Source of the DNA: Longimicrobiales bacterium | Lineage (GTDB): Bacteria; Gemmatimonadota; Gemmatimonadetes; Longimicrobiales; Gaopeijiaceae | Length of the DNA stretch: 64,000 nucleotides | Direction: 5' to 3' | NCBI GenBank assembly: GCA_028823235.1 | Contig: JAPKBW010000011.1 | Span: 1-64,000 of the forward strand | In this document: in pieces, positions 3,164 through 9,235 of the stretch | Position numbering within the stretch: position 1 is the stretch's first letter | Layout of the letters: each line of letters begins with the position of its first letter | Notes under the pieces: model-generated | Seen by the model: only the letters and a program-made list of their open reading frames with translations | Told to the model about the DNA's origin: nothing | The model's database searches: none | Translations under genes and position numbers: made by a program

Positions 3164-3751
3164 ATGCGCCATGCAATCTGTGCCGCGCTTCTTGCGGGAG
3201 TGTTCGCGATGGGGGGCCCGGTCGACGTCGGTGCTCAGGAAAGCGGCCTGTTGGCCGTAGGCGAAATGGCTCCAAATTTTGCGCTCCCCGGCGCAACACG
3301 GTTTGGAGTGCTAGACGAGCCAGTGACCCTGAGTGACTACAGCGGCGAAACGGTTGTCCTCGCGTTCTTCTTCCGCGTTCGAACACGTGGCTGAACAGTT
3401 CAAATGAGAGCGTACCGTGATCAGTACGCAAGTCTTTTCAATGCAGGACAAAACGTGGTCGTGATGGGTGTTTCCAACGACTCGTCGGAAGAAGGTGCTT
3501 CGTGGCTGCACGACGAGGACTTCCCCTTCGTGTTCGTGAGTGATGCCGAGAACGATGGCGCGACGTACGCCGCATTTGGTGGCGGACTGCGCGACAACAA
3601 CATGGTCGACAGCCGAGCCGTGATCGTAGTCGGGCCAGATGGCCGGATCGCGGGCACAATTCCGGCGTTCAACCAAAACGATCCGATGGCCTATGAAGAG
3701 CTGGCCGAGATCGTAGACCGCGTGACACCGGAGCCTGCAGAGGGCAACTGA
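3164..3751 (+). CDS. Peroxiredoxin-like selenoprotein (in-frame TGA = Sec77)
   Basis: AhpC/TSA-type thiol peroxidase of 195 residues if TGA at 3392-3394 is read as selenocysteine. Residues 1-24 are a signal peptide (MRHAICAALLAGVFAMGG), so it acts outside the cytoplasm. Both halves are in one frame without a gap: APNFALPGATRFG and the strand VVLAFFFRVRTRG lead into TGA, then TVQMRAYRDQY and a full thioredoxin-fold C-terminal half. The TGA occupies the peroxidatic Cys of the TxxC motif (T74-R-G-U77). The usual Pro seven residues before that position is Phe here. A hairpin at 3410-3429 fits a bacterial SECIS. An AGGAG site at 3150-3154 sets the start at 3164. The alternatives are a pseudogene or a C-to-A sequencing error (TGC to TGA). 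Convergent to the TlpA/CcdA redox pair. Confidence 0.75.
3410..3429 (+). promoter_or_regulatory. Candidate bacterial SECIS stem-loop
   Basis: GCGTAC at 3410-3415 pairs perfectly with GTACGC at 3424-3429 around the 8-base loop CGTGATCA. The loop starts 21 bases after the TGA and has G as its second base. This matches the general bacterial SECIS pattern (stem-loop shortly after UGA, a G among the first two loop bases). It lies within the coding sequence, as bacterial SECIS elements do. Confidence 0.6.
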
Positions 3752-3803: not shown

Positions 3804-3843
3804 CGAAGGGCCCAATACGGATGGATCCGTGTCGGGCCCTTCG
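3804..3843. terminator. Bidirectional terminator hairpin
   Basis: CGAAGGGCCC at 3804-3813 pairs perfectly with GGGCCCTTCG at 3834-3843. An inner ACGGAT/ATCCGT stem lies at 3817-3830. The hairpin sits between the convergent peroxiredoxin gene and the TlpA-like gene, so it can serve both. Confidence 0.8.
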
Positions 3844-3862: not shown

Positions 3863-4393
3863 TCAGCTGCCCAGCAAACGCCCTACCGCACCCATGAGGT
3901 CCTGGCCAGTGCCAACGCCAGTATAGGCGACCTTCCCGTCCCGGTCGAGCATAACGACGATCGAGGTTGTCGTCGCACTGTACGCACGCACCGCAGCCCC
4001 TCGCTTGTCGAAAAGATACGGGTATCCCGGGTCATGCTCTTCGAGGTGACGGTTCACCCTTCGCACGCTCTGTGAAACGCCCACCGCGACCGCCACGATG
4101 TTGACCTCGGCACCGTGCTCCGCCTGCATCTGATCGAATTGAGGCTGAAGCGCCTCGCACTGTTCACACCACGTCGCCCAGAACTCAAACACGGTCGGCT
4201 TGCCCGCCTCGACATAGTCGAGAAGTTCAACCGTCCCGCCTGCGAGGTCTTCCAGCGCAGCGCCCGGGCCCTGAGTGCCGAGGGCCAATGAGACCCCTCC
4301 CGATTGAGCCAGGGCAGAACCGGGCACAGCAGCGAGAAGACAAACCGTGAGCATCACCGCTCGGACGCCGTGAAAGCTGTTTATCGCGAGCAT
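3863..4393 (-). CDS. TlpA/ResA-like thioredoxin-fold protein
   Basis: About 176 residues: an N-terminal signal peptide (hydrophobic core VMLTVCLLAAV, ending SALAQ near residue 30), then a thioredoxin domain with active site WCEQC (Cys 76 and 79) and the cis-Pro region replaced by ATTTSIVVML. It is probably a periplasmic thiol-disulfide reductase that receives electrons from the CcdA protein encoded just upstream. The start at 4393 follows GAGGG. An in-frame ATG at 4408 would only add five residues. CcdA and this gene form a two-gene operon (spacing about 25 bases) and converge on the peroxiredoxin gene, so the three probably share a redox theme. Confidence 0.88.
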   Translation of the reverse strand: MLAINSFHGVRAVMLTVCLLAAVPGSALAQSGGVSLALGTQGPGAALEDLAGGTVELLDYVEAGKPTVFEFWATWCEQCEALQPQFDQMQAEHGAEVNIVAVAVGVSQSVRRVNRHLEEHDPGYPYLFDKRGAAVRAYSATTTSIVVMLDRDGKVAYTGVGTGQDLMGAVGRLLGS

Positions 4394-4417
4394 GAAGCCC
4401 TCATACATGGAACAGGA

Positions 4418-5149
4418 TCAGAGATTGTAGCCGGCCGTCATGAAGTAGTACTCCGCCATTGCCAGCATGATCACAGCGGCAGCGCGCTTCACCCACACCA
4501 TCCAGGCTCCCGAACGAGGGAGCATCACGAGCGCGCCCGAAAAAAGTCCGACCACAACGAGCAATGACGTCATCCCGATCGAGAACACGAAGAGGTAGAC
4601 AAAACCCATCAGTCCCGCCTGCGTCGCCGCCACCCATGTCAGCACCACCGCAAAAGCCGGTGCACCGCACGGCGCCGCCACGATGCCTGACATGGCCCCC
4701 ATGACAAACACGGCTCCGTAAGAGCCTCCATCGGTAGCAGCAGCGCGCTCGAGCAGTTTCCGAGGCACGGGAACAGGCAGCACGTCGAGCATGGAGAGGG
4801 CGAAGACGATCAATAGATTTCCGATCGCAAATAATGCCCACGGATTAGCACTGATCGTCCCGAAGATCTGGCCGCTGAGCCCGGCGATCGCCCCGAGCGT
4901 CGCGTACAGTGTCGCGAGGCCCACAGCATAGGTGAGGGTCAGCGTGATTGTCCGAAATTTCGTCTGACCTTCGCGCGTCGTCCCGGCGATCACCGCGCTG
5001 GTAATCGGAATCATCGGGTAGACGCATGGCGTCAGGCTCGTCAGAACACCGGCCACGAACATCGCCGCGAGCGCGACGAGCGGATTGCTCGATAGCGTTT
5101 CGGCGAGGCCCCCACCCGGGTCGATCGGCATCAGTCCAAGAGTCATCAC
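4418..5149 (-). CDS. ccdA: CcdA/DsbD-type transmembrane thiol-electron transporter
   Basis: 243 residues with about six membrane helices. The two conserved Cys motifs are present: SLTPCVYPM (Cys 42) and VAAPCGAPAF (Cys 161). In this family the pair carries electrons from cytoplasmic thioredoxin across the inner membrane to periplasmic thioredoxin-like proteins. The gene is followed immediately by a TlpA-like partner. DsbD's periplasmic N- and C-terminal domains are absent, so this is the short CcdA form. It starts divergently from the parvulin lipoprotein gene with about 135 bases between them. Confidence 0.92.
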   Translation of the reverse strand: MMTLGLMPIDPGGGLAETLSSNPLVALAAMFVAGVLTSLTPCVYPMIPITSAVIAGTTREGQTKFRTITLTLTYAVGLATLYATLGAIAGLSGQIFGTISANPWALFAIGNLLIVFALSMLDVLPVPVPRKLLERAAATDGGSYGAVFVMGAMSGIVAAPCGAPAFAVVLTWVAATQAGLMGFVYLFVFSIGMTSLLVVVGLFSGALVMLPRSGAWMVWVKRAAAVIMLAMAEYYFMTAGYNL

Positions 5150-8653: not shown

Positions 8654-9235
8654 TTATGCGAACCAGTTAGGTGTGTTTCCAGTTTTCCACTTGATGTTGC
8701 AGCCGATGCTCGGGTGCTGATCCCCCTTTGGCTGGCGGCCGGCCAAAACGGTATCGCAAGCCGTCCGTAGATCGTTGCCCGTCACGGGGACATTGAGCGA
8801 GGGACGACTACCATCGAACTGTCCTCTGTACGCGAGTTCCCGACATCCATCAAAGAGGAAGAAGTCCGGCGTGCAGGCCGCCTGGTACGCTTTCAGGACA
8901 TCCTGCGACTCGTCGAAGAGGTAGGGGAACGAGTAACCACGAAGCTGGACCTCACGAGCCATCTTCTCCGGGCTGTCAGCCGGATACGCGCGAGCGTCGT
9001 TACCACAGATCGCCACGATTCCAACTCCGCGCTCCTGATAGTCCCGCCCAAAGTCCGCCAGTTCGGACGCCACGTGTTTCACGAACGGGCAGTGGTTCGA
9101 CAGCACCATAACGACCAGAGCCGGAGCCCCGGCAAAGTCGGCCAACGACACCGTCTCGCCGGTCACAGGATCGGGCAGGCTGAATTCCGGTGCCTGGGTC
9201 TGCAGTGCCAGCATCGTCGAGGGTGTTTCAGCCAC
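8654..9235 (-). CDS. Redoxin (AhpC/TSA-like) family protein
   Basis: 193 residues without a signal peptide, so probably cytoplasmic. The N-terminal PEFSLPDPVTG and the strand VVMVLSNHCPFVKH give the thioredoxin-fold start with a single Cys at the active position. YQAACTPDFFLFD and the C-terminal PSIGCNIKWK are the other conserved Cys segments of this redoxin subfamily, often annotated simply as a thioredoxin family protein. The role is presumably thiol-dependent peroxide or disulfide reduction. The gene is monocistronic and leftward, with the shared terminator at 8605-8640 downstream. Confidence 0.88.
   Translation of the reverse strand: MAETPSTMLALQTQAPEFSLPDPVTGETVSLADFAGAPALVVMVLSNHCPFVKHVASELADFGRDYQERGVGIVAICGNDARAYPADSPEKMAREVQLRGYSFPYLFDESQDVLKAYQAACTPDFFLFDGCRELAYRGQFDGSRPSLNVPVTGNDLRTACDTVLAGRQPKGDQHPSIGCNIKWKTGNTPNWFA

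Follow-up and report, generated by a model that had tools for sequence, protein, structure and literature searches.

Gene Content of the Locus

The DNA analysed here (the window, a stretch of 64,000 nt) carries on its forward strand a gene of the AhpC/TSA family (3164–3751, +) for a putative selenocysteine (Sec) peroxiredoxin of 195 residues. Reading by eye shows AGGAG upstream of its ATG (3164), and the terminal stop is TGA (3749–3751). The frame has a single internal stop, a TGA at 3392–3394 (+), in the context ...AFFFRVRTRG-U-TVQMRAYRDQY...; in an alignment of homologues, this in-frame codon (residue 77, the predicted Sec) falls in the column of the peroxidatic Cys. A hairpin of bacterial SECIS type follows at 3410–3429 (+). 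Beyond the end of the gene, and convergent with it, are genes for a TlpA/ResA-like exported thioredoxin with a WCEQC motif (3863–4408, −) and for a CcdA/DsbD transmembrane domain (4418–5149, −; PF02683, E 1e-46). The convergent genes are separated by an inverted repeat, CGAAGGGCCC...GGGCCCTTCG (3804–3843, read directly from the sequence), a possible bidirectional terminator that was not returned by a terminator scan.

Ordinary gene calling would split a gene interrupted by TGA, and standard annotation probably misses this one or divides it in two. A programmed stop at the UGA would yield a short N-terminal product, the C-terminal part (3404–3751, ATG start) being made separately, and the ATG at 3404 does open a frame of 115 aa beyond the TGA. 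Such a split, however, cuts the fold at the active site, the Cys homologues are single full-length proteins, and one PF00578 (AhpC-TSA) domain match (residues 32–163, E 8e-21) bridges both halves, leaving the programmed stop with a negligible probability. The first-pass annotation had described a frame broken only by a TGA at the peroxidatic position, with intact family sequence on both sides; every detail of that description is present.

Selenocysteine Machinery

The same genome (97% complete) encodes SelA (516 bits), SelB (325 bits) and SelD (387 bits), all scoring above the NCBI cut-offs, together with a tRNA-Sec (70.9 bits) whose anticodon is tca (UCA). The machinery that the first-pass annotation had suggested looking for is, therefore, all there. 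The SelD gene of this genome (L018:1501-2427, contig C10) itself has an in-frame TGA at the position of the active-site Cys (GAG-U-ACKLG), followed by a stem-loop, and its product is a second candidate selenoprotein; at least two genes of the genome thus seem to use Sec.

Conservation among the Gemmatimonadota

Close homologues occur in 93 of 146 genomes of the order, nearly all with one TGA in the same column. Of 295 genomes in the class, 162 contain an exact TGA motif, and a relative at E 1e-35 is present in 314 of 395 genomes of the phylum. As judged from these homologues, most Gemmatimonadota share this gene as a conserved selenoprotein gene. Named records with the family are from Gemmatimonadota, including Longimicrobiales, Candidatus Palauibacter and BD2-11. 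Four records labelled Euryarchaeota or Gammaproteobacteria (L118, L137, L138 and L139) also carry this gemmatimonadotal gene, and these bins look mislabelled.

In the homologues read, the peroxidatic column is occupied by TGA (116 sequences) or by Cys (31 sequences), the two states anticipated by the first-pass annotation. It had also named decay of the gene in close relatives as evidence that would count against Sec, and no frameshift or further internal stop was found among the close relatives read; several genomes of one genus (g5) had been scored with an additional TAG, which in the ones read is the ordinary C-terminal stop. Purifying selection after the TGA (dN/dS about 0.04–0.09, pS 0.57–0.72) is as strong as before it.

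The TGA is one base away from both TGC and TGT, and a pseudogene or a sequencing error, with a Cys codon changed to TGA and the gene dead or misread, would need only that change. Against this stand the presence of the TGA in 116 homologues from many assemblies, the strong purifying selection past it and the Sec machinery of the genome, and the chance that the gene is dead or misread is minute. The argument made from this single sequence, that a random nonsense mutation would not be expected at such a position, is borne out across the phylum, where both the TGA and the frame downstream are conserved.

The form of the gene follows the decoding machinery. All 20 of the Sec genomes tested have SelA, compared to 3 of 16 Cys genomes (Fisher p 2e-7, relatedness ignored); for tRNA-Sec the counts are 19 Sec and 3 Cys genomes, and 13 of the 16 Cys genomes have neither. 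In G257, a complete genome with the Sec form, no tRNA-Sec reached the search threshold. The three Cys genomes with SelA and tRNA-Sec presumably retain them for other selenoproteins. A frame kept open by TGA is compatible with any code in which TGA specifies a residue, and the UGA could be read through or reassigned as Trp, Cys or Gly rather than Sec. This is very improbable, given that this gene and several relatives also end in TGA as their ordinary stop, that homologues have Cys in the column, that tRNA-Sec (UCA), SelA and SelB are encoded in the genome, and that the presence of SelA tracks the Sec forms. Insertion of Sec at the UGA (3392–3394) is, from these comparisons, very likely.

Tree reconstruction requires at least seven changes between Sec and Cys by parsimony, at least two of which are forced by well-supported branches. 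Several Cys forms are nested among Sec forms, as expected if Sec has been lost repeatedly. Some genomes (G066, G136, G226, G005) carry two TGA-containing peroxiredoxin copies, and in another (G215:C46:138108-138709) the gene is apparently present in tandem as Sec and Cys forms, about 560 bases apart. One sequence (L032) reads RGGGU in place of RTRGU near the Sec codon, with loss of the Thr at −3, and is either a variant or an assembly error.

The SECIS-Type Hairpin

The hairpin, GCGTAC-CGTGATCA-GTACGC, begins 15 nt past the TGA and consists of six Watson–Crick pairs closing an 8 nt loop with G at its second position, as the first-pass annotation had it. Published limits for bacterial SECIS elements are a loop of 3–9 nt, a stem of 4–16 bp, a G within the first two loop positions and a UGA-to-loop distance of 16–37 nt (PMC13188914), and the hairpin lies within all of these, its UGA-to-loop distance being 21 nt. 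The minimum free energy of the 41 nt from the TGA onwards (−8.5 kcal/mol) passes the limit of −7.5, while that of the bare hairpin (−7.0) narrowly fails it. Relative to shuffled sequences, the folding energy of the region is not unusual (z −0.9). Within the window, 59 of 1911 TGA triplets are followed by some looser hairpin of this kind, so that a hairpin by itself is weak evidence; only one is followed by the exact geometry.

The decisive evidence is conservation: all six pairs are intact in 115 of the 116 Sec homologues read, and the 20-mer is identical in 108. Synonymous sites are frozen as well, the hairpin codons showing a mean synonymous entropy of 0.20 bit compared to 1.24 in other conserved codons (p 4e-5). 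In four Cys homologues where the RNA was checked, the hairpin is damaged, with four or five pairs left. No compensatory base changes were found in the stem among the 116 Sec genes, because the stem is frozen and varies in one sequence only. The evidence pointing to a functional RNA element is therefore sequence freezing, and loss in the Cys forms, rather than covariation.

Predicted Structure, Active Site and Export

An AlphaFold2 model of the protein (pLDDT 93, pTM 0.89) has its best structural matches in BCP (9a4d_B) and other peroxiredoxins, and both the domain match and the predicted fold are of the AhpC/TSA peroxiredoxin type. The N-terminus resembles a signal peptide of the Sec (secretory) type (MRHAICAALLAGVFAMGGPVDVGA followed by QES, the boundary reading VGA-QES; read by eye), and the protein is apparently exported to the envelope. 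The mature protein contains no Cys, making it a 1-Sec enzyme. The protein retains the catalytic Thr (−3) and the Arg of the active site. When compared to the pattern PxxxTxx(C/U) plus a later Arg, the Thr, Sec and Arg are there and the Pro is replaced by Phe; the codon concerned is TTC (3371–3373, +), at −7 from the Sec, the place of the PxxxTxxC Pro in peroxiredoxins.

Pro stands at −7 in each of the 31 Cys forms read. An earlier motif search restricted this codon to YYN, which could hide other Cys variants; when the codon was left free, all 22 Cys matches again had Pro, 13 of these matches being shared with the YYN-limited search. Among Sec forms, Phe or Tyr predominates at this position; some genera have Pro, and Ile, Val or Ser is rare. 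The 115 Sec sequences in the tree sample for the Pro/Sec comparison were chosen to include rare residues, and their proportions are not natural frequencies. Perfect tracking of Cys and Sec by Pro and Phe, as it appeared from 80 sequences, is ruled out by the Sec forms with Pro, Ile, Val or Ser. Well-supported branches supplied just two pairs to an independent-pairs test of the Pro/Sec link, which was too small to reach significance. There is an even chance that selenium frees the enzyme from an otherwise obligatory active-site Pro, and that each return to Cys comes with Pro. If true, this would be a natural and repeated test of the role of the Pro, set across a phylum in a 1-Sec peroxidase of the envelope that receives its electrons from TlpA and CcdA. 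With Sec and Cys exchanged repeatedly, and a corresponding change at the Pro, it becomes possible to test why this residue is near-invariant in Cys peroxiredoxins and what Sec alters.

The protein could contain Sec and not be a peroxidase, acting instead as a selenol oxidoreductase or a redox sensor with a peroxiredoxin fold. A peroxide-binding motif without its Pro, the lack of a resolving Cys and the adjoining thiol-reductase pair would all suit such a role, but the protein keeps its Thr at −3 and its active-site Arg, and the Cys relatives have the full PxxxTxxC motif, so that a non-peroxidase function is unlikely. Peroxidase activity is the likely function.

Gene Neighbourhood and Proposed Mechanism

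About 159 homologous loci were compared, in two overlapping sets with some loci incomplete; TlpA is present in at least 127 and CcdA in at least 121. The two genes are placed tail to tail with the peroxiredoxin gene in most loci, even where the other neighbours differ, and are not nearby in some. The adjacency pointed out in the first-pass annotation is, in other words, a conserved arrangement, and this supports a working link between the proteins; the electron path itself is inferred. The CcdA-like protein (4418–5149, −) has both of its own Cys residues; among NCBIfam models it matches the DsbD-like part of the selenoprotein TsoB best, though at a score far below cut-off. The window also encodes, 5 kb away (8654–9235, −), a further protein of AhpC/TSA type; it contains an SNHCPFVKH motif and accompanies the cluster in close relatives.

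The gene, although seemingly broken by a stop, almost certainly encodes an intact, selenium-using envelope enzyme that destroys peroxides. In the proposed mechanism, SelB and Sec-tRNA(UCA) would decode the UGA at 3392 as selenocysteine, guided by the hairpin at 3410–3429, and the protein would be exported to the envelope. The selenolate of Sec77 would then reduce a hydroperoxide, becoming a selenenic acid. With no Cys in the mature protein, no internal bond is possible; an external thiol would resolve the selenenic acid, most likely that of the neighbouring TlpA, the candidate reductant, which would in turn be recharged across the membrane by CcdA, the candidate electron carrier.

Comparison with Known Peroxiredoxins

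Within the phylum, Cys homologues (L052, L053 and L218, for example) share the protein family, gene length and signal-like N-terminus of the Sec form. They differ in having TGC or TGT for TGA, Pro at −7 and a damaged hairpin where checked, and their genomes usually lack both SelA and tRNA-Sec.

The best sequence and structure matches of the protein are thiol peroxidases of the BCP/PrxQ type (2cx3, and the BCP 9a4d_B), with which it shares T-x-x-(C/U)-T and the active-site Arg. It differs from these in having no Cys in the mature protein and in being apparently exported, and its score against the BCP/PrxQ model NF006960 is 54.1 bits, compared to a curated cut-off of 140. None of the NCBIfam equivalogs covers it, the PrxU equivalog (NF040737) scoring 38.5 bits against a cut-off of 270.

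Sec peroxiredoxins with a TxxU motif are already known, and the gemmatimonadotal protein is not a new kind. They were first described from Eubacterium acidaminophilum, according to 2001 work cited in PMC13188914; 43 sequences were reported in the Sargasso Sea survey (PMC1088965) and 253 in GOS (PMC2398784), some of which may belong to the gemmatimonadotal lineage. A literature search for selenoproteins in Gemmatimonadota found no relevant report. In common with the known TxxU proteins are the AhpC/TSA fold, the peroxidatic Sec, the TxxU motif itself and a bacterial SECIS downstream. The gemmatimonadotal form differs in its signal-like N-terminus, in the lack of Cys in the mature protein, in the adjoining TlpA and CcdA genes, and in having Phe for the Pro of PxxxTxxU, a residue described as highly conserved (PMC13188914). 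It extends the known set by a selenium peroxidase that is apparently exported and whose electrons probably come from across the membrane.
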